A stretch of DNA of 64,000 bases, from contig NC_088295.1 of assembly GCF_032854445.1 (NCBI RefSeq), positions 61,361,249 to 61,425,248 of the forward strand. The letters run 5' to 3'. The position numbers and the translations under genes are program-made. The notes beneath the pieces are model-generated. The model was given only the letters and a program-made list of their open reading frames with translations. It made no database searches and was not told the origin of the DNA. Numbering within the stretch: the first letter of the stretch is position 1; each line of letters begins with the position of its first letter. This document shows positions 7,301 through 63,985 of this stretch, in pieces. Source of the stretch: Liolophura sinensis. Taxonomy: Eukaryota; Mollusca; Polyplacophora; Chitonida; Chitonidae.

Positions 7301-7506
7301 TCAAATTCCAGATATATGTACAGCCATTTTGTGAGAGAGTTATCGCTGATGACACAAACTCTCTAATGTCCTTGGTAACCTATGTGGGAATCTTCAAAAC
7401 AGAAAATAGCAGGTTTCAGCTATCGCCTGCAAGGCTGAAATATTGCGGCAATACGACAGGCCAGGCATCTTGTGTATGTATGTATATATACTTGGGGCTT
7501 TACTTA

Positions 7507-7730
7507 TTAATTTATTTATTTGATTGGTGTTTTACGCCGTGCTCAAGAATATTTCACTTATACGCCGGCGGCCAGCATTATGGTGGGAGGAAACCGGACA
7601 GGCCCAGGGGAAACCCACGACCATCCGCAGGTTGCTGCAGGCTTTCCCAAGTGCGACCCGAGGGGGAGCCAGTATGAGCTGCACTTGAACTCACAGCGAC
7701 CGCATTTGTGGGTCATTACTCTACTCCCTG
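7507..7730 (-). repeat. SINE family 1 copy
   Basis: On the plus strand it begins with ATTTATTTATTTGATTGGTG, then TTTTACGCCGTGCTCAAGAATATTTCAC and a segment ending ...CCAGCATTATGGTGGGAGGAAACC. The sense of the element is the minus strand: a tRNA-like head (lost here), a body and an (AAAT)n tail. It creates spurious ORFs. Confidence 0.9.
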
Positions 7731-15954: not shown

Positions 15955-16158
15955 TCATTTATTTATTTGATTTATTTTTTACGCAGTACTGAAGAATACT
16001 TAATTCATACCACGGCGTCCAGTATTATGTTGGGAGGAAACGTTATACGACGGCGGCCAGCATTATGGTGGGAGGAAACGCTACACGACAGCGGTCAGCA
16101 TTATGGTGGGAGGAAACGTTATACGACGTCAGCCAACATTATGGTGGAAGGAAACGTC
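15955..16158 (-). repeat. SINE family 1 copy with internal 38-bp unit repeated four times
   Basis: The (AAAT)n tail and ACGCAGTACTGAAGAATACTTA block are normal. The next segment (TACGACGGCGGCCAGC...ATTATGGTGGGAGGAAACG) is then repeated four times with an exact 38-bp period, with starts near 16008, 16046, 16084 and 16122. The rest of the element is absent. Confidence 0.9.
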
Positions 16159-17164: not shown

Positions 17165-17948
17165 TCAGTTCAGATCCACAACAACTGGGGCCAGGTCATC
17201 TGGCTCCGTTTCAAAGTCCCAGTTATATTTTTTAGTCAAGTTTTTGCAGAACTCTTCAGTTCTCTTCTTGAGAGCGTCGCTTGCTGAACTGTGCTTGACG
17301 TTTGAGAAGAACTCGTGCAGAGTGTTCGTTAAGAAGTTATTGGAAGAGACAATATCTACAAAGAAGTCTTCCGGGATTTCCCTCAGCTGAAAGTGCATGA
17401 GGGAAATAAACTTCATGAACAGATCAGTGTCACTAGACAGGGCTTCTTCACACGAACACAAGAGATGAACCAAACGCTTCCAGTGTTCAAACGCATCGTA
17501 GACTTGTCCAACGATAAAACATACAAAACTAAACTGGATTTCACCTAATATGCCCAACATCTGGTCTGGTTTCTTATAGCAGCTTTGTAACATTGCCTTC
17601 AGGGCGTAACTGGAGTCCAGACTGTATTTGGTCATGTCCTTTGGGGAAGACCCAGGGGGATATTTAATTTTTGGAATCTGATTGAACCTGATTTCTGTGC
17701 CCGGAACAGTCTCCATTTTTGGTAGCCTTTTCTCCATGTCAGCCAGTTTAGAGGATGCAGTTGAGCCTTCACCATCCTCCATGCGAGCTGGTTTCCTCAG
17801 TTCTGCCTCTGCTTCCTGCTTCCTACTTTGTGAGGTACTACACTTTGAAACAAACTCTGTCACAGAACAGATTTTTCCGTTAACCGGCTGAAGAGACTGG
17901 GCTAGTCCAGGCGTGATGTAATTCGTCAGTGACACCCACTTTTTGTAA
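17165..17948 (-). CDS. AAR2: AAR2 exon 4: most of the protein, including the C-terminal domain
   Basis: The exon starts at 17948, after the acceptor CTTTTCCTTTCAG. The open frame reaches 20 bases further upstream to an ATG at 17968, but those codons (MFAFPFS) are intron sequence. The first codon is split: AA from exon 3 plus T, giving Asn before YKKW. There is no internal intron. The linker around [20 protein letters not shown] is variable in the family; the two flanking conserved blocks are intact. Confidence 0.95.
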
Positions 17949-19970
17949 CTGAAAGGAAAAGCGAACATCCCTTAGAAACACAGTCAACTATAATTTCATG
18001 TTTTTTTTTTCACTAACTTATCAGCATACAAAATGTCAGGTATCTGAATTACAACTAAAAGGCAGATTTAACAACCTATAAAGTGACTTTTTCTAATTTC
18101 ATATTAAGCTCAATATTATTCCAATTTTAAACAAAAAAGAAGCACACAGAACAAGACTAGGGTTGACTGTTTCATATCTATCAGTTCAAACTAAAAAGTC
18201 CTAAATTACTTTCACATTTGCCGAACAGCAATCTGCTTCTTTGCTGGTTTGTGTGTGAGGCATAGAGATGACTTTTGTCCCAGCACTTTTGTTCACATGG
18301 AATAATGATTCACTGTTTAATATGACAGGCAACACAATGGCCTCACTTTTCATATGGGTTGGTGTCAGGTGTAAACATAAACTTCCTGATTTTATTTTCG
18401 CCATACTCAAGAATTTTTCACTTATACAATGTCACTCAGCCAGTCACTTTTAGGCAGTGAGAAAACCAGAGTGCTCAGGATACACTTCAGATTGGGAAAG
18501 TGTAAAATCCAAAAAAAAATTCTGACAAGCTTTGCCATACGGGAAGTACATTTATATCTATTCACACCATCTTGGCGAAAGACAAGTGGTCTTAATGAGC
18601 TTTAGACCTCACAACGTCAACCACTTACTGTTTCCAAGGCCTCACAAGCAGAAATGACCTTGGTGCCAGTACCTTAGTTCACTCTACCAGTACATTATCT
18701 GATTATACTGACTCTGTGTTACCATTTCAGAGGTCTCACTTTTCATATGGGTAGTGTCCCAAAAACCGATCCATTTCCTGTTTGTTAATGAGAACTCTCT
18801 CCACAGTAGAGGCATCAGCAGAACTGTCCTTGATATCTGCCAAATATATACACAATAAATGTATTGTAACAATCCAGTTAAAGTCTGGACTAAGATCTCG
18901 TTATAGCGTTCCCGCATTGGCTTATATGGTTAATGTGTCATTCTCACTATAGCCAATCTGTCCTTCGCTAATAACTTATTTATTTATATTTGATTGGAGT
19001 TTTACCCCACCATCACGGATATTTCACTTACACATTGACGGCCAGCATTATGGTCGAAGGAAACTGGCAGAGTACAGAGCAAATCCACCACACTGAACGA
19101 CCAACCAGAGGTTGCTGGCAGACCTTCCAACATACAAACGGAGAGGCAGCCAGCATGTGCTGGATTTATACTCACATCAATCGCATTGGTGTGAGGCTCC
19201 TTGGTCATTATTCTGATCTGCTAGCATGCTATAACAAGTAGGCCACAGAGCCACCACTTTTCCTACCCCCTGCCTCAACAATGAAGTTTCACGTTAACTT
19301 ACTTATTATTTCTGCTGCGCGGCATAATTTATTTTTTATATTATTTATTTGATTATTGTACATCGTGTGTAAGACCATTTTTAGCTAAACGGCTACTTAA
19401 AACTACATACACTTCAAATTGACCCCAGGCTATATATAAAAAAAAGGTATCCACATTTCCTCCACAATAAAAACTGCTGTTAATAATGTCTTAAGGATGT
19501 ATTAAGATGTTCGTGTATGCCTCGACAACAATAATAGCAAAGGTTTGATTGAATTTGATAGTACTTTTTTTTTGTACTTATCTCAGAATTCACCAAAAAA
19601 TATGAAGTACTAAGACTGTAGTATAAATATGTAAAATTATTGTCACTGTTTGCAGATATGAGCGTGGCACTCATACAAGTGACACTGTTTTAAAATTATA
19701 AGTGTGACACATCAAAATTACTGGCTCAGTTAATATTTCTATTATTTATTGTTTCTAGTTTGTTTTATTACTGGTTCCTTTAACAGACCCAAAACTCCCA
19801 GAATAACCCCAGTCTACCTTCCATATATGCATCCCACTCCTTCACCAGAATTTCTTTCTGCTCAAAATTGTGAAAAAATCCAGTCCTTGGAGCAGTTTGC
19901 TGGTCTGAGTTAACCGCACTGTAACAAATAAACAATTTTATGACCAAGAAATACGTGCCACTCCACACAC

Positions 19971-40300: not shown

Positions 40301-43300
40301 TCAGTGGAAACGGTACTTTCTTGCTGGTTTCAAGTTGACGTAGGTTTTCTTCATTTCCTCATCTTCTTCCTTCTTCACCTCTGTGAATCGCTCTCCTTTG
40401 GTACTGACAACCCGTCCATCTAAGTATCGCACCATTTTCTTTGGACACTGAAAGCGGTATTTTAGAAATAAAAAATCAACGAAAGGTGTGTATTTTCTCT
40501 TCAGTTTGATGAAATTTTTTGAAGCTTTGAAGTTTGCAAACTCAAATCTTGCTACATGTACAGGTGATTGAACAAGAAACCTTATCATGTATGACAAAGC
40601 TTCTTTAAGTGCCTCAGGCTGAAACTTTTCAGTCTCCCCTTATACATGCACATGTGTGTATCTTTTGTGAAGATTAGAAATCAGGCAATTCCACTCATAC
40701 TATGCCTCTAGACTAACGAAATTTCTTCATAAAGCTTTGAAAAAACGTGAAAAGTTTTGAAGTTGGCCAACTTTGACCTTGTACGTTTGTCTCTCATCAG
40801 TTTTCTTTCCATACATATTAGTGTTGACTCACTGATTAAGATACTGAAACCATTTTGTAACATACAACTGAAGCATCAAGCTCAAAAAAAAAAAAATAGA
40901 TTTCATACTTTGTGGAAAATTTTAATAATGTATATAATGTCAGGATGTGAATAAGAACATGCAGCAGTGGCCCATACTTATCATAATACAATAACCCTGA
41001 GCCACACAAAAAAAAGTTAATGAAAAGTTTTTTTTCATATGTTGTGGTATGGCTCAGACAATATTAAACGCATCAAAACTTTACCTAAAGTAAATAGAAT
41101 TAGCAGATCCCTTAATATGGGTGCTTGTATGTCCCATGTTTATTCAACTGTGCACACAATTATCCAACTGTCAAGATAAAGGACGACTATTCCAATTAAC
41201 AAACTGCAAATTTTTGTTTTATACTTCTTTACATTATTTCCTTTGTGGGGTGTCCATATGTAATTGTACCATAAATAAGCATACATGTACCTGTTTGGGA
41301 GTGATAGGTTTATGGACAACTCTGTCATCATGTTCATCAATGTAGGCATATCTGATGATAAGAAATATAATATCAGATGAAAATATTAAATGCAGTTGCG
41401 ATTCACCATGCAGTGAGGCCTACAGTGTAGGCCATATCCAAAACACTGATATCTTAGACAGAAAAATGTTAAATTAACTCACTATACAATAAAACGGCTG
41501 GATTTATCTAAAATAACTTTATACATACACGTGTACATGAATATAAATGATAAGGGGAAGGTATTTAAAGCTGTATATGAACATGGTATATGTATTTAAA
41601 ACTAACCATCTACAATCCTTAAAAAGATAATCTGATAAGGCAGGACACCTACTTTGCCAGCATCTGCTCTCTCACTTTCTTATCATCTTTTTTCGGGCTT
41701 AAGACATTCCTTTCCTGTTAACATATAATGAAACATTTCTTTGAACATACAACAGTACACAAAAACTTAATACAAGTACTTGTATTCTACAGAATGAGTT
41801 TGAATATACAAGCAGCTGTGTGAGTTACCATAAATGTCTAAACAGAGGAGTCAAGGCACATACAGTACCTTGTATTGTGGAGAGCCCTCAGTGACGGTGT
41901 ATCCAGCCTGCTGTCTGAGCAGGATGAATTATCTCACACTGTCTGTGTCGCACTACATGTTACCAGACAACGTGTCACGTACCATGTACTGTGGAGAGCC
42001 CTCAGTGACGTTGTCTCCAGTCTGCTGTGTGAGCAGGATAATTATCTCACACTGTATGTGTCACCACTAGACATCATCAGACAATGTGCCACTTACCTTG
42101 TACTGTAAGGAGCCCTAAGTGATAGCGTCTCCAGTCTGCTGTCTGAGCAGGACAAATTATGTCACACTGTCTGTGTCACCACTAGACATCTTCAGACAAT
42201 GTGTTACTTAACTTGTACTGCGGGTAGCCCTCAGTGATAGCGTCTCCAGTCTGCTGTCTAAGGATGATGACTTGTGTCACACTGTCTGTGTCACCACTAG
42301 ACATCTTCAGACAATGTGTCACACTTAACTTGTACTGCGGGTAGCCCTCAGTGATAGCGTCTCCAGACTGCCGTTTGAGCAGGATGAACTAGGTCACACT
42401 GTTGCTGTCACCACTAGACATCATCAGACAAGGCGTCACTTACCATGTACTGTGGGAAGCCCTCAGTGATAGCGTCTCCAGACTGCTGTCTGGGCAGGAT
42501 GAATTATGTCACACTGTCGCTGTCACCACTAGACATCTTCAGACAATGTGCCACTTACCTTGTACTGCGGGTAGCCCTCAGTGATAACGTCTCCAGTCTG
42601 CTGTCTGAGCAGGATGAATTATGTCACACTGTTACTGTCACCACTAGACATCTTCAGGCAATGTGTCACTTACCTTGTACTGTGGAGAGCCCTCAGTGAT
42701 AGCGTCTCCATTCTGTTGTCTGTGCAGGATGAGTTGAGCAGCACTGTCCGTGTCACCACTAGACATCACCAGACAATGTGTCACTTATCTTGTACTGTGG
42801 AGAGCCCTCAGTGATAGCGTCTCCATTCTGCTGTCTGTGCAGGATGAGTTGAGCAGCACTGTCTGTGTCACCACTAGACATCACCAGACAATGTGTCACT
42901 TACCTTGTATTGTGGAGAGCCCTCAGTGATAGCGTCTCCATTCTGTTGTCTGTGCAGGATGAGTTGAGCAGCACTGTCCGTGTCACCACTAGACATCTTC
43001 AGACAATGTTTCACTTATCTTGTACTGTGGAGAACCCTCAGTGATAGCGTCTCCATTCTGTTGTCTGTGCAGGATGAGTTGAACAGCACTGTCCGTGTCA
43101 CCACTAGACATCACCAGACAATGTGTCACTTACCTTGTACTGTGGAGAGCCTTCAGTGATAGCGTCTCCAGTCTGTTGTCTGTGCAGGATGAGTTGAGCA
43201 GCACTGTCCGTGTTACCACTAGACATCACCAGACAATGTGTCACTTACCCTGTACTGTGGAGAGCCTTCAGTGATAGCGTCTCCAGTCTGTTGTCTGTGC

Positions 43301-46300
43301 AGGATTAGTTGAGCAGCACTGTCCATGTCACCACCAGACATCACCAGACAATGTGTCACTTACCTTGTACTGTGGAGAGCCTTCAGTGATAGCGTCTCCA
43401 TTCTGTTGTCTGTGCAGGATGAGTTGAGCAGCACTGTCCGTGTCACCACTTGACATCTTCAGACAATGTGTCACTTACCTTGTATTGTGGAGAGCCCTCA
43501 GTGATAGCGTCTCCATTCTGTTGTCTGTGCAGGATGAGTTGAGCAGCACTGTCCGTGTCACCACTAGACATCTTCAGGCAATGTGTCACTTACCTTGTAT
43601 TGTGGAGAGCCCTCAGTGATAGCGTCTCCATTCTGTTGTCTGTGCAGGATGAGTTGAGCAGCACTGTCCATGTCACCACTAGACATCTTCAGACAAGGTG
43701 TCACTTACCTTGTATTGTGGAGAGCCTTCAGTGATAGCGTCTCCAGTCTGTTGTCTGTGCAGGATTAGTTGAGCAGCACTGTCCATGTCACCACCAGACA
43801 TCACCAGACAATGTGTCACTTACCTTGTACTGTGGAGAGCCTTCAGTGATAGCGTCTCCAGTCTGTTGTCTGTGTAGGATGAGTTGAGCAGCACTGTCTG
43901 TGTCACCACTAGACATCTTCAGGCAATGTGTCACTTACCTTGTACTGTGGAGAGCCCTCAGTGACAGCGTCTCCAGTCTGTTGTCTGTGTAGGATGAGTT
44001 GAGCAGCACTGTCCGTGTCACCACCAGACATCTTCAGACAAGGTGTCACTTACCTTGTACTTTGGAGAGCCCTCAGTGATGGCATCTCCATTCTGTTGTC
44101 TGTGCAGGATTAGTTGAGCAGCACTGTCCGTGTCACCACTAGACATCTTCAGGCAATGTGTCACTTACCTTGTACTGTGGAGAGCCCTCAGTGATAGCGT
44201 CTCCATTCTGTTGTCTGTGCAGGATGAGTTGAGCAGCACTGTCCGTGTCACCACTTGACATCTTCAGACAATGTGTCACTTACCTTGTATTGTGGAGAGC
44301 CCTCAGTGATAGCGTCTCCATTCTGTTGTCTGTGCAGGATGAGTTGAGCAGCACTGTCCGTGTCACCACTAGACATCTTCAGGCAATGTGTCACTTACCT
44401 TGTATTGTGGAGAGCCCTCAGTGATAGCGTCTCCATTCTGTTGTCTGTGCAGGATGAGTTGAGCAGCACTGTCCATGTCACCACTAGACATCTTCAGACA
44501 AGGTGTCACTTACCTTGTATTGTGGAGAGCCCTCAGTGATAGCATCTCCTGTCTGTTGTCTGTGTAGGATGAGTTGAGCAGCACTGTCCATGTCACCACT
44601 AGACATCTTCAGACAAGGTGTCACTTACCTTGTATTGTGGAGAGCCCTCAGTGATAGCGTCTCCATTCTGTTGTCTGTGCAGGATGAGTTGAGCAGCACT
44701 GTCTGTGTCACCACTAGACATCTTCAGACAAGGTGTCACTTACCTTGTATTGTGGAGAGCCCTCAGTGATAGCGTCTCCATTCTGTTGTCTGTGCAGGAT
44801 GAGCTGAGCAGCACTGTTCGTGTCACCACTAGACATCTTCAGCCAATGTGTCACTTACCTTGTACTGTGGAGAGCCTTCAGTGATAGCGTCTCCAGTCTG
44901 TTGTGTGTGCAGGATGAGTTGAGCAGCACTGTCCGTGTTACCACTAGACATCACCAGACAATGTATCACTTACCTTGTATTGTGGAGAGCCCTCAGTGAT
45001 AGCGTCTCCATTCTGTTGTCTGTGCAGGATGAGTTGAGCAGCACTGTCCGTGTCACCACTAGACATCACCAGACAATGTGTCACTTACCTTGTACTGTGG
45101 AGAGCCCTCAGTGATAGCGTCTCCAGTCTGTTGTCTGTGCAGGATGAGTTGAGCAGCACTGTCTGTGTCACCACTAGACATCACCAGACAATGTGTCACT
45201 TACCTTGTATTGTGGAGAGCCCTCAGTGATAGCGTCTCCAGTCTGTTGTCTGTGCAGGATGAGTTGAGCAGCACTGTCCGTGTCACCACTAGACATCTTC
45301 AGGCAATGTGTCACTTACCCTGTACTGTGGAGAGCCTTCAGTGATAGTGTCCCCAGTCTGTTGTCTGTGCAGGAGGAGTTGAGCAGCACTGTCCATGTCA
45401 CCACTAGACATCAGCAGACAATGTGTCACTTACCTTGTATTGTGGAGAGCCCTCAGTGATAGCGTCTCCAGTCTGTTGTCTGTGCAGGATGAGTTGAGCA
45501 GCACTGTCTGTGTCACCACTAGACATCACCAGACAATGTGTCACTTACCTTGTACTGTGGAGAGCCTTCAGTGATAGCGTCTCCATTCTGTTGTCTGTGC
45601 AGGATGAGTTGAGCAGCACTGTCCGTGTCACCACTAGACATCACCAGACAATGTGTCACTTACCTTGTACTGTGGGAAGCCCTCAGTGATAGCGTCTCCA
45701 GTCTGCTGTCTAAGGATGATGATTTATGTCACACTGTCTGTGTCACTCACTTTGTAATGTGGAGAGCCCTCAGTGATAGCGTCTTCAGTCTGTTGTCTGT
45801 GCAGGATGAGTTGAGCAGCACTGTCTGTGTCACCACTAGACATCTTCAGACAATGTGTCACTTACCATGTACTGTGGAGAGCCTTCAGTGATAGCGTCTC
45901 CATTCTGTTGTCTGTGCAGGATGAGTTGAGCAGCACTGTCTGTGTCACCACTAGACATCTTCAGACAATGTGTCACTTACCTAGTACTGTGGAGAGCCCT
46001 CAGTGATAGCATCTCCATTCTGTTGTCTGTGCAGGATGAGCTGAGCAGCACTGTTCGTGTCACCACTAGACATCACCAGACAATGTGTCACTTACCCTGT
46101 ACTGTGGAGAGCCTTCAGTGATAGCGTCTCCATTCTGTTGTCTGTGCAGGATGAGTTGAGCAGCACTATCCGTGTCACCACTAGACATCACCAGACAATG
46201 TGTTACCTCTAGGGCACAGGAGTTGGGAAACATTTCAAGCAGTATTTCAATTTTTGGATCAGGTGCTTCATCTTGAAGTGACAAACTCTGTGGAAACACA

Positions 46301-49300
46301 AATTAGAATCTGACTCAATGTCTCTCATTACAGTCGCCTGCCACTGGTCCACCAATGGTGTGCTTCAAGTGAGCTTGTGGAACAGTAAATGTTTTTCACC
46401 AGTTGCCAAAGAGTTTTACCACTTTAGCTGGTCTCCAAATTCATGGATCTCAGGAAATCTAAACCCTCTACACATACATGTAAGTGCTCCTGGCATAAAA
46501 CAGTAACGAAAGAAGCCTGGTAAAGGTGTGCAAAAGGTGAATGCACCTACAGGCAAGCTGTGGTGTGCCTTAAAAATGATTGGGCATGTATTTTATGCCT
46601 CTGTTTATTTCATAAGTTTGAAATGCCCTAATTATGACCTAATCAGAAATAAAGATCACTGCATGGTGCAGCATGCAGAAGAGCGACTGCAACAGCTTGA
46701 CCCATGAAAGCTCCAACCAGGCATCTGTGGGTTGCCTTAGGTTCTTTAAAAGTGAGGCAGCTTGCCTGCCACCTTGTTGAGTCACAGTTATGTCCCTTTA
46801 ACCATGCATGGTTCTTCATATAAAAAAACCACTGTCGTAAGGGAAATGCTCTACACCGTATAGTGTAAAACATAAATCTGATAGAAAGCAAATCTACAAA
46901 CTGATCTAGAAGAAAAAATAAAACCTATGACAGGTACCTGTCCATGGAATCTAGAAAAAATTCAGTAATCTGATTATGAAATATGAAAAAATAGAAAAAC
47001 AATCTTGTTGTTTTAGCCATAATTTGTCCCTTCATCTAGTAAATAAAAGCTCCAAATTGGATGGCTCTCAACAATTCAAGATAAATAATCCCTAAAAATA
47101 AAAATAGGTAAATGATAGTACATTTTGTATTTCGTGGGTATCTATTACTTTTACATGTACGATACATGTGGCTTCATATGAGCCCTTTCAAGTAACACTT
47201 AGCTACACCTACCTTAGATTCTGCATCTGATCCACCATTAACAATCAATGCCAATTTGCCTGCCTTATGCTCATTAGGACTCTGTAGCTCCACTGGCTTT
47301 AACGACAGTACAGCCCCTACCTTGTCTGAAGCAAAAGACAGAAAAAAACAACACATTATTACTTGATTGGTGCTGAACATTTCACTTAACATTCTTAAAT
47401 CACAACACAGGACAGGCTTTTGAGAGAGTAAATGAGTGTGTTCATGCAGTGTATTTTCTTCTATGAGAGAAAAGTAATAAATAATCTGACATCCATCACT
47501 ACACTTGTAACTGTTTTCTTGTGGTTTTATAACTTGAGCAATGTCTCCTCCAATTCATTATCTATTACAGGCAAGGAAAACACTAACATGAAGTATGTAT
47601 CAGATGAAAGAGCATTAAAACTGTCCAGGAAATTTCTTTAACCTAGTAAAATGCATTTGAATATTTTATGCTATGGTGGCCTTTTCTGGCCACAATGCCA
47701 CCATGCACTAACATCACATAAGGTTTTTGCTACATAACACATATTAGACTACTACATTTCATAATTCAATGTGCATCTACATATAGATCTATGAACGCAT
47801 TCACTGATTTCACTTTGAAATGAATTATTTCAGGGTGAGAAACACAGATGTAATGTAATTGATACCTTCTGGGTTTTCTTCAGATAGAAAACTTCTGCAA
47901 AAAATAAATCCAACTATTTTCCTGGACATTTATTAATAGTCTTTCATCTGATATATACTTCATTTTGGAGTGGACTTTGCCATTAATGGCTCACTCAACT
48001 TTAACTGCAGACTGCCTGGTTTTCTCCCACCATAACGCTGACCATATAAGTGAAACATTTCTGAGTAATCAAATAAATTTAACTGCAGAAAATTTGAGTT
48101 ACATGTGTAACTACACGTATATATAATATGTATAATGTGGGAAAAATGGCATCTTTTATGCTTCCATTCTTTTTCAACCCCTCCGCGGAGGTCATGAATT
48201 TTAGACCAATCAATGGCAAGTTGGGCCACTGCAACTGATCTAGATATTTCAAAGTTGCGTATGTATGACACATTCAATGTTGTTTGACAAACTTAATGAT
48301 GTTTGAAAGGTCACTTTTATTTAATATGTATATTTGCACACTGCCCGCAACTGGCAATGGGGTACAATACTTAACAATTACCTGACGTGTCCGACTTGGA
48401 AGACTTTCCAGCTAACTCGAACATCCACTCACAAACTCGAACGCTGAAAAATAGATCAAGATTTATGTAATGTTTTTAGCATTTCTAGCATATGTACATA
48501 CACAGTGCATACATAATACTGGGCAGTATATACATTCAAATAATGTACATAAGTTTAACAGGCGTACATCTGCATGCATATCTCCGCCGATATTAGTAGG
48601 CTCCGTGTACATATATGCCAGTGAAATACAACAATTACAGAAAGCCAATGGATGCCACTGGCAGGATCATAAATATAGGTTAATATTTATATATTTATTT
48701 ATTTATTTGATTGGTGTTTAACACTGTACCCTAGTATGACAAGGGTCAGGTTTATGAGAACAGGTAATCACAGAGCTTAACTATCAACTTTTGCTATGTA
48801 CCTCACAAACTTCCTGATTAAAAGCTGCAGCCAAATTAAACCAATTAAAAGCCAATTAAAAGTGCCACTCTGGTCAGAATACAAATTGCGTAGAAATATT
48901 ATAATGATATGAAAGAAATCCTATGGAGTAAGCTTAACACTATGTTTGAAGAATAACACTATTTAACCCATATAACAGAACATTCCTTGAAAAACAAAAT
49001 CTCCGGCTGTCTCAGTAAAATTTTCCTGATGTGACGTGATAATATTCCCTGCATGACGTCGAATCAGGCAGAAGTGATGTTGAGCAAGGCATTTATGCTG
49101 GGATGATGTCAAGAGCATTTGGGCAGTGTCATTTGTGGATATACGTCAGCGATTGATGACGTCATGTGTTCGTGGGTGACTTCACACCAGGCAAAGTGGA
49201 AGGGACAGAAATATTTTGTTTCCGTATACTCTTACGAAACGTACACTATCGGTTTTAATTTTTAATATTTTCACAATTTAGGAAAGCAATTCTGACTATC

Positions 49301-58400: not shown

Positions 58401-61400
58401 GAAATATGAACCTTTATGCTTATATCACTTTGGTGGAGAAAATGTTGGAACCAAATCCATGTGTGGAAATCCTTTTTGAAATCTCATGTTTCTGATGATT
58501 TAACAGGGCTCAGAAGAAGCTATGCCTCTTTGGTATATCATGGATGAGTTTGGATCACGTATCCGTCATTCTGACAAGCCTACATTCAAAGCTGTGCCAT
58601 TCTACTATGTCCCGTCACAGCTGGCATTTACGCTGTTGTGGCCACTCCAAGATTTGAACCAGGGAGGTAGGTCTTCCTACAGAACACACGAACCACATAC
58701 AAATGCATCGTCACAATGTTGTGGGATGTCCTCAGGGTCCACTCAGTTACAGTGACAACTTTTGACTGTGCAAATTGTTTGACAAAGTGTGAAGTTAGCC
58801 TGTTGAAAGGAGTGGAAGCCAAGTTTGTATTTTCATATTACATGTGTGTAAACATGAGGTCAGGTGACATCCCTTTTCAAAAATTTACCTCCCTTAACAG
58901 TAGGTATCAACTAATCCATTGTTGACAGCATGTAGCCACAGACCCCCATTAATTTTCCATAAGCGACAGTGTTAACGTTTAGTGCCGTAGCTCAGTCCCA
59001 AACATTCCGTGGCCAATAAGTTTTGGTGGATACCTGGCCCAGGCTGTGAGAAAGAGGCCATAAAAATCTTGACATAGGTTCACCGTTAAAATCTGGACCT
59101 TTCTATGCTGGCAGCTGGGAGGGGTGCCTAGCAACGCCAAGGGGACATCACTCACAACCTCATCACTCCCTGTCTCCTTTTGTCCTCTCGGCCAGAATTT
59201 CAATCTTTCATCATTAAAACACATACCTGCCCAAAGCTTAGACACTTGCCATCATTTGAATCCCAAGCATGTACCTTTACACCAAAAATGGCAGGCTGGC
59301 AGTGAAAAAAGACATTAAACCCTAAAATACACAGAACTACATTCGTCCCTCTCGAGAAAACGGAAGTTGTAATGGGGTATGTGGAAATACCAGTGTGATG
59401 GAATTTAAACGACCGGAATTATTAAAGGTGACTAATCAGGCTGTGAAATTTCTTGTAGGGTTAACAAGTTGTGAATCATTGCAAAGTGCTTTGGTGCATT
59501 GAGAAACAGACAAAGTAAATGCTAATATTTATCATAGTCCCATTTGCTTTAATACTGAAACAAAGAACATATACGTGTACCTGTCACCAAGGGAGATAAG
59601 CCCTTGAAAAGGGAAGTAACCTATGTATGACAGAATTACGAAATGGAGTTAATAATACCCACAGTGTCAATCATGAACTGATGAAAGAAGCTGAGTCCGG
59701 TACAGTTCAGGATGGGAAAGGTAACATCGGGCTGACCCTGTATTATCCTGACCCCATCAAAATGCAGATCAGAGACTGGGCTCTGCAGTAACGGAGCAAC
59801 AGTCTACCAGTATCAAGAACTGCAGTTATGGAGTACGCCCGAAAGGCTGTGGACGGTCCCGACTAAGGCGTCCAATGGCTGGCTAGGCCAATTCCTCTGT
59901 AGACATCACCTGACCCTGAAGACGAGGACGAGTGTGACCCAACAACTTCCCAATGACCTAGAGAGGAGGGTTCAGATTTTCCAAATTTATATCCAAGAAC
60001 AGAGATTGAATGGAGAGTTTGATGATGGTCTTCTTCAATTCAACGGACCCAAGCAGAACTGTTGCCCAGAAGGGAGAGAAGACCTTCGTCAGCAGATCAA
60101 CTGGTGCTGCAAAATGTCATCTAACTGTTACGCCTGCCATGACATCAAAGGGTATAACCTTACTGTGTCTGCTCATCTTCAGAGGTAGGCATTCGCTCTT
60201 CACTTTTCTGTTTTCTTTTAAATTTTACTCTCCATGATATTTGTCAATCACCACACGAAAAAGTCTTTGCACAATAATTTTATTTTTACTTCTTATTTTC
60301 AAAGGAAAGAGATGGCCATTGGACGCGACGTCAGTGCTAATAAATATCCATGTGAGGATGCAGGATGTATATCTGAAGGCTTAATGGTGGTTTAGATCAA
60401 CACAGTCTCAGCCCTATTCACTCCAGGAGGGAAGAGTATTCTGATCATGGATTCCTGTGCTGTCCACATTACCCCCACAGTTTGTAGGAAACTGGATGCT
60501 GTGGGCTTTATGTATGAAGTTGTCCGGGTGGTTGTACGTCTAAGGTAAGCATTGCATTCATGATTTCTTTTTGCCTGAAACATACATGCTGATAGATATT
60601 TCGATTTTATCTTAAGTCATCAATTCAGTCTGAATTTTGAGATAATATTGTAACCTAGCCATATGTTAAGATGAATGACATGTAACTTATGTGACGTAAC
60701 AGTCTTTATGTATTTTATTACTTCTACAGGTATGTATACTTTTTGCCCATAGATACAACTGTTGGATGTTTAAATCAACGAGCCATTCAAAGACCACTTG
60801 AGGCATTCTTGGACAGCTTATATGAATAAGTTCAACCACACCTGTGCACGTATCCCCACAGCCAGTCGCCAGCTTATTTTGGACTGGATTGACACGGCTT
60901 GGCAGGCGATTGACCAATGTCCACACTGACCAGGTCATTTGGCGTATGTGGCATCACGGATGCATGGGACTGGACAGCTGCCGAAGCCGAAAGGAGAGCA
61001 GCTGTTCTTCATGGTGATCTACTCACTGATCATAGTTCAAACTCGGTTTTTGATGAATTCACCACCGCTGATGTGAACCACCCACACTGGAAAATGACAC
61101 TGCGAACCCTTTCCTGTAAATGCTCCAGTCCCAATGTTTGTGTCATGCATTGCAAGTGTGTTGAATTCACTGTATATATATATATGCCGATTTGACTTTT
61201 CAGTTCAGGAAAATAAAGTGTTGTGAAGTCAATAAGTTACAACTGTACATGTGTTGACTTGATTGATATCATAGGCCTTGCCTCCAGTAATGAATGAATT
61301 CATTAGCAAGGCAATGACAAGCCAGGCAGTAATAGTAAAAGTAAGAAGTTTAAAAATATAGGAGTATAACATTGTATTTAGTCAATCTTACAGCAGCTTT

Positions 61401-62784
61401 ATTTGGAAGAGGCATAGAACAGTCCTTGCTGTTGTCTTTGCTATAATGAATCATATAACTGGCTGAGATCTGTATCTAAACCAATTGGCTTCGTTACTGC
61501 GAACTGTGTGGCCAGTAATGAGATTGAGCGTGGGATTCACTACTATTCGTAAGCAAGCTTCTTGATGAATACAGTTTTGAAAGAGACCCGTGTGATTGTG
61601 GTTTCAAGTTAAAACAAAATTACCAGCATGGTTCCAAAAGATTGATCGGTGACAAAGGTTAATTTGTTAGACAAGCTTTTAATGATGATGAAATTTAAAA
61701 CATAACCAACTCAGCCAGTTCTGACATGAAATTTTAAAAAAATATTCCAAAAGTTTAAAATATCTCTTACATGTGTTAGTGAAAAAAAATGCTATAAATA
61801 TCACTTCAAGATTGTTTCCTGCTGATGTGCTGATTATGAACTGTGTTCTCAGAGGAAGTGACCCGGGATTTTGTGGAGAATGTCCATGACCCGCTGAAAA
61901 GAAGAGCTAGACTGTTACCATGGAAACCTGATGATTTAACTGACATTCCTGTTACTCAAGTTGAACCAGACGAGGAGTATTTTTTGGTACAGCACTTTGT
62001 ATATTAAAATGTAAAAAAACCTGAAACATTATGGTGAACACCATCATTAACATTTCTTTGAAAACCTATTGGCAATGGACAGAAACTTTTCTTTAAAGTA
62101 GAAGAGGGTATCAAATAAAACTGACATATTTATGTGATTAGAAAGTCTTGAATAACAGGAAAGTCTTAAAAGAAACATTTTTTAAACATCAAACAAAATG
62201 AAAGGTAGGTTTACAATTTTATTTCTTAAGAGTGGAAAAAATAGCTTGTGAAAGCACCTGTGTTAGACAGTAGGCATCTTGCCAGTAACACTCAAAGGGT
62301 TTTCAAATATTGGAATACATTAACTTCTGTGGGGCAAAAAGTCATGAGAAAAAAATGGTGTTCAAATTTTCAGATGTAACTTTTATTTAGTCTTCTATTG
62401 GGAATATATTTGAAAGTAAAGGTATTCTGTGTCTTAATGTGGATACAGTGACAAACAAACTGTTTGCATATACCTTAATATGTGGGAAGGAAAATCATAT
62501 TATAGGGCTGCATCAGTATACACCATATGTACAAATATTAATAAATCTTAATCAGATGAACAGGTATTATGTTGTGTTAACCACATTTTTCAGGAGTACA
62601 GAGGAACCGAGACATTACCAAAGGTGAACAGTGAGACTCCCACCCTCCCCAGAGATCGGTGTGCTAAGGTTTATTTTGACACAAAGATGTACACCAGTTT
62701 CCTAACTGACCCCAGGTTTGAGGCTGTTCAATCTTCAGCCGAGGCAGACATCTGGTGGCTGTGTCGATCTTTCAAGGATTACCA
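55468..62784 (+). CDS. TTLL12: Tubulin tyrosine ligase-like protein 12, first seven coding exons (partial)
   Basis: TTLL12 has a SET-like N-terminal region and a TTL-like C-terminal domain, and has been linked to tubulin and histone modification in vertebrates. Plus-strand exons: 55468-55602, 56878-57008, 57516-57680, 58111-58147, 58507-58666, 61853-61986 and 62594-62784, all GT-AG and in phase. Family marks: FSEFVALHRHQL and IPERYWPTLCTKLQDE with IYDAGDSFQ (exons 1-2); YLVDHAWTYRLPDARAQL, MPGLLERMANLMEV and YKEMWR (exon 3); MPLWYIMDEFGSRIRHSD, FYYVPSQLAFTLLWPLQDL (exon 5); VTRDFVENVHDPLKRRARLL, PWKPDDL (exon 6); FEAVQSSAEADIWWLCRSFK, DYQ (exon 7). The ATG at 55468 (AACCATGCC) was chosen because upstream codons have no family similarity. 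The TTL domain and the end of the gene lie past the window. Intron 5 holds a dead transposon; the intron after exon 7 starts with a tandem array. Confidence 0.95.
55800..56290. other. TTLL12 intron 1, left part
   Basis: No exon or clear repeat recognised. Confidence 0.5.
56295..56515 (+). repeat. Degenerate SINE family 2 copy in TTLL12 intron 1
   Basis: CAGACCCAGGTTCAGTCCTG (box B like), TACTTCCTCACGTAATAC, CTGTTGACTCAGTGTCAGTA and TGGATATCTGTTAGGTGTTA follow the family body in order. Confidence 0.5.
57120..57395 (+). repeat. tRNA-derived SINE in TTLL12 intron 2
   Basis: GGTGCAGGTTCAAACCCGG is a clear box B; CTTGGACGGGGACTTTATGG and ATCTGTAGAC follow. The 3' part has TCTTGCCAAAGGTTGGCGGT and TTACACTGGGCACC, then TCTGACAGGCATCGATTAAG, like 24425-24570. 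Confidence 0.75.
57755..57955 (-). repeat. SINE family 1 copy in TTLL12 intron 3
   Basis: TTACTTATTTATTTGATTG, then TTTTTTTTACGCAATACTGA, TATGGCCAGGATTACGGTGG and GGAAGGCAGGAAGAGCTAGA. It starts about 75 bp after exon 3, antisense to the gene. Confidence 0.88.
59640..61195 (+). pseudogene. Dead pogo/Tigger-like transposase in TTLL12 intron 5
   Basis: Fragments of a pogo-superfamily transposase appear in order, split by stops and frameshifts. First comes a CENPB-type DNA-binding part ending RHHLTLKTRTSVTQQLPNDL. The DDE part follows: TVAQKGEKTFVSRSTGAAKC with LTVTPAMTSKGITLLCLLIF, then GGKSILIMDSCAVHITPTVC (the central D-x-H region), then AIQRPLEAFLDSLYE. The C-terminal part has LILDWIDTAWQAIDQ in one frame and LTRSFGVCGITDAWDWTA in another. 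In-frame stops occur near 59790, 59863 and 60395. An AATAAA near 61210 may be its old polyadenylation signal. Terminal inverted repeats were not found by eye. Confidence 0.8.
61230..61850. other. TTLL12 intron 5, right end
   Basis: No coding or repeat signal recognised between the dead transposon and exon 6. Confidence 0.5.
61990..62590. other. TTLL12 intron 6
   Basis: Plain AT-rich intron; nothing recognised. Confidence 0.6.
62594..62784 (+). CDS. TTLL12: TTLL12 exon 7, last coding exon in the window
   Basis: Starts after TTTTTCAG and ends at the first of the tandem GTGAGT donors, phase 2. It encodes KVYFDTKMYTSFLTDPRFEA and then a segment ending WWLCRSFKDYQ, matching the region just before the TTL domain in the family. 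Use of a later donor of the array would extend the exon by multiples of 100 bases. The codon AAT TCC AAG TCA TTT TAG in the next unit would stop the frame, so only the first donor gives a full protein. Confidence 0.9.
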
Positions 62785-63985
62785 GTGAGTATATGTTTGG
62801 TGTTTTTGTGAGGAATAATTCCAAGTCATTTTAGTAGAGGCTGATGCCTGCATGATGGTGGAATTGATTCTTCAAGGATTACCAGTGAGTATATGTTTGG
62901 TGTTTTTGTGAGGAATAATTCCAAGTCATGTTAGTAGAGGCTGATGTTTGTGTGATCGGTGAATTGATTCTTCAAGGATTACCAGTGAGTATATGTTTGG
63001 TGTTTTTGTGAGGAATAATTCCAAGTTATGTTAGTAGAGGCTGATGCCTGCATGATGGTTGAATTGATTCTTCAAGGATTACCAGTGAGTATATGTTTGG
63101 TGTTTTTGTGAGGAATAATTCCAAGTGATGTTAGTAGAGGTCGATGCCTGCATGATGGTTGAATTGATTCTTCAAGGATTACCAGTGAGTATATGTTTGG
63201 TGTTTTTGTGAGGAATAATTCCAAGTCATGTTAGTAGAGGCTGATGTTTGTGTGATCGGTGAATTGATTCTTCAAGGATTACCAGTGAGTATATGTTTGG
63301 TGTTTTTGTGAGGAATAATTCCAAGTTATGTTAGTAAAGGCTGATGCCTGCATGATGGTTGAATTGATTCTTCAAGGATTACCAGTGAGTATATGTTTGG
63401 TGTTTTTGTGAGGAATAATTCCAAGTCATGTTAGTAGAGGCTGATGTTTGTGTGATCGGTGAATTGATTCTTCAAGGATTACCAGTGAGTATATGTTTGG
63501 TGTTTTTGTGAGGAATAATTCCAAGTGACGTTAGTAGAGGCTGATGCCTGCATGATGGTTGAATCGATTCTTCAAGGATTACCAGTGAGTATATGTTTGG
63601 TGTTTTTGTGAGGAATAATTCCAAGTGATGTTAGTAGAGGTCGATGCCTGCATGATGGTTGAATCGATTCTTCAAGGATTACCAGTGAGTATATGTTTGG
63701 TGTTTTTGTGAGGAATAATTCCAAGTGATGTTAGTAGAGGTCGATGCCTGCATGATGGTTGAATCGATTCTTCAAGGATTACCAGTGAGTATATGTTTGG
63801 TGTTTTTGTGAGGAATAATTCCAAGTCATGTTAGTAGAGGCTGATGTTTGTGTGATCGATGAATTGATTCTTGAAGGATTACCAGTGAGTATATGTTTGG
63901 TGTTTTTGTGAGGAATAATTCCAAGTCATGTTAGTAGAGGCTGATGCCTGCATGATGGTTGAATTGATTCTTCAAGGATTAATAG
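62771..63985 (+). repeat. Tandem array of about 12 x 100 bp: TTLL12 exon 7 end plus splice donor
   Basis: The unit starts TTCAAGGATTACCA|GTGAGT, where the bases before the bar are the last codons of exon 7 (FKDYQ) and GTGAGT is its donor. It continues with ATATGTTTGGTGTTTTTGTG and AGGAATAATTCCAAGT. Starts are at 62771 (real exon), 62871, 62971 and so on every 100 bp to 63871. A degenerate copy at 63971 has lost the donor. Eleven extra GTGAGT donors are intact. Units fall into two types: CTGATGCCTGCATGATGGTT and CTGATGTTTGTGTGATCGGT. The first and last units differ most. Confidence 0.95.

Follow-up and report, generated by a model that had tools for sequence, protein, structure and literature searches.

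An exon–intron border minisatellite of the mirage kind fills an intron of the chiton CUEDC2 gene

In the chiton Liolophura japonica, one of the introns of CUEDC2 is occupied almost entirely by tandem copies of the border between that intron and the exon upstream of it, most of them carrying the 5′ splice site, which raises the question of how such an array arose and how the gene could tolerate it. The array was analysed within a 64,000-nucleotide stretch of genomic DNA (hereafter the window), for which a preliminary description had proposed an intron filled by about 37 copies of the edge of exon 5, each made of about 108 nt of the exon followed by GTAAGTG. Both proposals held. TRF run on the window returned a repeat of 115 bp in 33.4 copies at 41866–45711, with more overlapping rows to 46203, and anchored splitting resolved it into 38 units, namely exon 5's own copy (46203–46089) and 37 intronic units ending at 41862 (Table 1). 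The 115-bp unit consists of the last 108 nt of exon 5 plus GTAAGTG, and the array makes up 96.5% of its 4,381-nt intron; the number of copies excludes chance. Inverted repeats of at least 20 nt were not reported in 41000–47500, nor were RNA families or tRNA found at threshold across the 64-kb window.

Table 1. Features of the two border arrays and their surroundings, in window coordinates
Feature	Position	Strand	Remarks
CUEDC2 exon 5 (CUE-domain exon)	46096..46287	minus	192 nt, open frame; exonic part of unit 1 formed by the final 108 nt
Authentic donor AGG/GTAAGTG	46089..46098	minus	GT at 46095–46094
Mirage array, 37 intronic units	41862..46088	minus	typically 115 bp, one shortened by deletion to 87 nt
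29 young units near the exon copy	42667..46088	minus	old-type deleted unit (45743–45657) interspersed
7 old, diverged distal units	41862..42666	minus	6 of 7 with a stop in the exon frame from the unit start
Two-unit block	43472..43701	minus	duplicate of 44277–44506 (u15 = u22, u16 = u23)
Non-repetitive intron tail with authentic acceptor TTAACAG	41715..41861	minus	147 nt
CUEDC2 exon 6	41653..41714	minus	start at 41714
TTLL12 exon ahead of second array	62594..62784	plus	donor at 62785
Second mirage, 12 units of 100 bp	62774..63973	plus	first unit beginning inside the exon

The gene had been named CUEDC2 beforehand, and this name was borne out. Exons 5, 6, 7 and 8 of the orthologue join in frame (the start of exon 8 in the joined model being set three bases inside its likely acceptor), and the joined protein of two upstream exons plus exons 5–8 is 36% identical (95/264) to human CUEDC2. 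The Pfam CUE model matched the frame of exon 5 alone with an E value of 0.041, which is weak and below the cut-off, and was not among the Pfam matches to the joined protein, so the name depends mainly on the comparison with the human sequence. A coding repeat of variable number was also considered for the array and rejected, since the 115-nt unit is not a multiple of 3 and a stop lies 9 codons past exon 5.

The units fall into two generations. A tree of the units separated the exon copy and 29 young units from eight old ones (the seven distal units and the deleted one) with support of 100/98, most branches within the young group being weak, and the exon copy was 89.6–98.3% identical to the young units. 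A stop in the exon frame, read from the unit start, is present in 7 of the 8 old units and in 1 of the 30 young rows (u2). Multi-unit duplication has also taken place, two neighbouring units recurring as exact copies seven units away. The interior of the array is thus homogenised, with identical two-unit blocks, and its distal units are diverged, while the boundary on the exon side shows no divergence.

Canestro et al. 2002 is said to be the paper in which repeats of this sort were named mirages. Tandem repeats of exon–intron borders are known under that name from lancelets, where two papers describe them in Adh3, the globins BflGb6 and BflGb9, troponin C and PGBD5 and report splicing to be regular in spite of them (PMC3087553, PMC3902484). 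As far as these descriptions go, the chiton array and the lancelet mirages have in common border-spanning tandem units that adjoin the authentic exon, AG/GT signals kept by many but not all units, and partial homogenisation with diverged boundary units, although in CUEDC2 the exon-side end is not diverged. They differ in unit number, 37 intronic units in CUEDC2 against 3 and 6 in the described BflGb6 haplotypes and up to 7 in PGBD5, and in host. Mirages also vary in length between haplotypes or somatic cells; the chiton array was examined in one assembly. Among the features by which mirages are recognized, the CUEDC2 array has a border-spanning unit beside the authentic exon, splice signals in many units and a homogenised interior; the cephalochordate range, which is not strictly defining, does not apply, and since the host is a chiton, mirages occur in a mollusc. 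Among the matches listed in searches of open-licence literature, the name was applied only to lancelets, and none concerned a mollusc. The idea that a minisatellite made of an exon–intron border is unusual thus has to be revised, lancelet mirages having been described already and seven more arrays (one weak) being found in the same chiton genome. Internal tandem repeats at exon–intron boundaries, averaging 30 bp in four copies, are moreover described for human segmental duplications (PMC2812944); these are likewise variable at borders and may activate cryptic splice sites, but were studied in recent paralogues, whereas the chiton array spans 4.3 kb and the gene that holds it is conserved.

We next consider the splice signals that the array presents. 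A ladder of about 34 donors had been claimed, and GT is indeed kept in 33 of the 37 intronic units (34 of 38 with the authentic donor counted), with the exact GTAAGT in 30/37. Most units read AAG/GTAAGT where the authentic donor reads AGG/GTAAGT, so that 26 of the 37 outscore it on a donor weight matrix; computed pairing with the 5′ end of U1 was more stable than that of the authentic donor for 26/37. The terminal unit of the array has a poor donor. Frame-shifting pseudo-exons of 46 nt, also foreseen in the preliminary description, are preceded by AG in 34 of the 37 intronic units (35/38 including the exon's own copy), and their acceptors have 11 pyrimidines in 17 positions compared with 10–12 in 17 at five authentic acceptors. 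All 37 modelled extended exons, of which 33 end at a GT, reach a stop 9 codons on, and all 34 modelled single inclusions of the pseudo-exon stop early. With 26/37 decoys scoring above the authentic donor, leaky splicing at array donors could be substantial.

How, then, might the array have arisen and been tolerated? We think it likely that it is a mirage minisatellite, a tolerated and roughly neutral by-product of a high rate of minisatellite birth that involves no mechanism specific to splice sites. The anatomy of the array, its two generations, the block duplication, the intact donors and the other mirages of this genome are observed directly. Part of exon 5 with its 5′ splice site would have been tandemly duplicated into a pre-existing CUEDC2 intron, and two or more waves of growth, through unequal exchange or slippage, would have followed, one now represented by the old distal units and one by the young, exon-like units; the high minisatellite birth rate of the chiton genome would be the underlying cause. 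In exon definition, the shortest exon is the one that ends at the first donor. If the authentic acceptor is paired with whichever donor lies closest, the 192-nt exon would result, though most decoys look stronger, and we infer that CUEDC2 is still spliced mainly at this first donor, which would account for tolerance of the array. Where decoys were used, premature stops would follow and the transcripts would be expected to be degraded by nonsense-mediated decay, making the array a tolerated, roughly neutral load.

An alternative is that donors themselves seed tandem duplications, through open chromatin, R-loops or U1 binding, so that splice sites are targeted for amplification. A second array in the window, in TTLL12 (SET_TTL on the joined upstream exon pieces, E = 5e-53), makes this worth weighing. 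Every one of its units contains the last 11 nt of the exon and the donor CCA/GTGAGT, identical in 12/12, and all 15 variable columns fall in unit columns 54–100. Farther along the same intron, past the window edge, lie an inverted 49-bp array of the exon end plus GTAAGTTTACAG, with 15 minus-strand matches, and one degraded direct copy; in having this additional inverted array TTLL12 is unlike the lancelet mirages. Self-comparison of 12 borders in the window (6 donors and 6 acceptors) found arrays at 2 donors, and both window arrays with units of at least 50 bp in at least four copies sit on donors, with a chance P of 0.0003–0.008 for 12–60 donors.

We next turn to exon borders elsewhere in the genome, surveyed at 60 exon loci, of which 30 came from 81 myosin matches and 30 from 57 USP matches. 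At 5/60 loci an array unit covered the authentic border, at the donor in L029, L037, L066 and L068 and at the acceptor in L070; L037 is the weakest case, with 8 exon bases in the unit and an array starting about 60 bases past the exon. L075, a myosin exon next to L019, carries a further array. Including CUEDC2, eight arrays of this sort, one of them weak, were found in the chiton genome by small searches; seven are on the donor side and one is on the acceptor side. An automatic border test flagged 2/55 donors and 2/58 acceptors. The caller flagged one acceptor falsely, that of L068, and missed the donors of L066 and L068, where the match to the gene family runs across the intron, so that true cases were read by eye. 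Among random 16-mers of the flanks, 137/1196 had at least two further copies nearby, a rate that may be inflated as simple repeats were only partly excluded; even with L066 and L068 added by eye, the donor rate stays below it. Arrays with a period of at least 15 cover 10.1% of 180,000 flank bases, compared with 9.0% of the window and 4.1% of the bases within matches; overlap between loci, as in the pairs L018/L019 and L067/L068, means that flank bases are partly counted twice. The lower rate at borders than at random flank positions indicates no enrichment of arrays at borders, and this, together with the abundance of arrays away from them, makes targeted amplification unlikely. A donor bias is hinted at by the window P and by the seven donor-side cases of eight, in a survey too small to settle it. 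The window-only statistic, which favours donor targeting, is not confirmed by the 60-locus survey.

A dispersed, introner-like element was examined too and rejected. The one 14-mer of the unit that was tried had 22 matches in the array and 4 elsewhere in 609 Mb, against about 4.5 random matches expected on two strands and 1 for a reversed control. Exact-sequence searches of papers, viral contigs and genome contigs for an interspersed element gave no result, and neither did a PDB search.

The array could instead be a regulatory ladder, in which decoy donors and pseudo-exons tune or lower CUEDC2 output through unproductive splicing. Such a role would be consistent with the GT in 33 of the 37 decoys, the 26 that outscore the authentic donor and the premature stop in every modelled decoy product. 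We nonetheless hold it to be quite unlikely, given the poor donor of the terminal unit, the similar arrays in unrelated genes (TTLL12 and the myosin and USP loci) and the way in which the donors have been kept. Retention of GT in the array is 0.892 and the median over unit dinucleotides is 0.919, with 49/114 dinucleotides kept equally well or worse; conservation of the donor above the rest of the unit was thus not detected in this small sample. Earlier suggestions of a splicing buffer, of regulated unproductive splicing or of a source of circular RNA accordingly found no support, donors being kept no better than other dinucleotides. Nor was codon selection detected on the array copies, likewise a small sample: derived states in the exon part comprise 24 replacement and 14 silent in young copies (p = 0.21 against a neutral ratio of about 2.5–2.75:1) and 39 replacement and 19 silent in old copies (p = 0.38 against the same ratio).

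It is very unlikely that the tandem duplication itself created the CUEDC2 intron, the array then being an intermediate in the Rogers model of intron gain. That model (PMC4974935) also duplicates a segment carrying AG/GT; the chiton unit bears such sites as well as acceptor-like AGs, and the model has been put forward for lancelet globins. Past the last unit, however, the intron continues for 147 nt that are unrelated to the repeat and end in an acceptor of their own, followed by exon 6, so the intron was probably already present and would be older than the array. An assembly artefact, to which tandem arrays are prone, is likewise very unlikely, since the assembly is built from HiFi reads (14x) whose mean length, 8,347 bp (PMC11068029), exceeds that of the 4.3-kb array, and since the copies carry private variants and form two generations; the exact copy number may be off.

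If the array is a mirage minisatellite, as we favour, a further question is whether it exchanges sequence with the exon beside it. The exon copy groups within the young units and shares variant sites with the array, its AGG donor context recurring in u7 and u25 and a V/K codon being split between GTG and AAG. On this basis coding exon 5 and the intronic array may evolve in concert, the array, itself untranslated, supplying through exchange the variants with which the CUE domain is rewritten in its 3′ half, a possibility that we put forward tentatively and consider doubtful.

These data extend mirage minisatellites from lancelets to molluscs, a single genome having yielded eight cases, one of which is weak, and suggest that mirages result from a high turnover of minisatellites and are not an oddity of lancelets. 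The CUEDC2 array offers a natural test of how a spliceosome chooses a weaker donor when 26 copies score higher, and equally of whether introns feed variants back into coding exons. Were exchange between exon and array to prove real, genomes with high minisatellite birth rates, such as those of lancelets and chitons, would repeatedly expose their coding exons to it.

The gene for CUEDC2, on the minus strand, and that for TTLL12, on the plus strand, look like a head-to-head pair (40301-62784), and TTLL12 carries an exon-border array of its own. All units of this second array have identical donors, its variable positions being found only in unit columns 54-100. An inverted array of 49-bp units follows just past the window end, in the locus extracted from the next part of the TTLL12 intron (L074), and its unit too is derived from the TTLL12 exon end plus donor. 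In the TTLL12 transcript, the exon end would have its complement in this inverted array.

Features in and just beyond the window
Feature	Position	Detail
SINE-like interspersed element	7499-7710 and about a dozen further places	~200 bp
SINE-like element copy	16007-16157	38-bp piece of core in four tandem repeats
AAR2 homologue	17165-17971	PF05282, E=1.5e-54
Transposase fragment	59736-60188	Tc5-type DNA-binding domain, PF03221, E=1.3e-4
Second exon-border array, TTLL12	62774-63973	12 units x 100 bp
Inverted 49-bp array	L074 233-935 (C1:61425481-61426183)	just past window end

The transposase fragment apparently lies within a TTLL12 intron. AAR2, for which the window holds a homologue, is a factor related to splicing. 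The 14-base core of the SINE-like element, GGTGGGAGGAAACC, had 15 matches at ≤2 mismatches, compared with 0.23 expected, and the copy with internal tandem repeats is perhaps a young minisatellite arising within the element. Elsewhere in the assembly (G000), contig C99 (108,685 bp) contains seven head-to-tail COX1 matches spaced ~15.5 kb apart; it is a mitochondrial concatemer, likely a product of assembly.

Exon borders of myosin and USP genes in the same genome also bear such arrays (extracted loci L029, L037, L066, L068, L070 and L075, the last a myosin exon beside L019). Across 60 exon loci (L012-L041 and L044-L073), minisatellite, taken as period ≥15 and copies ≥2.5, makes up ~10% of exon-flanking sequence.
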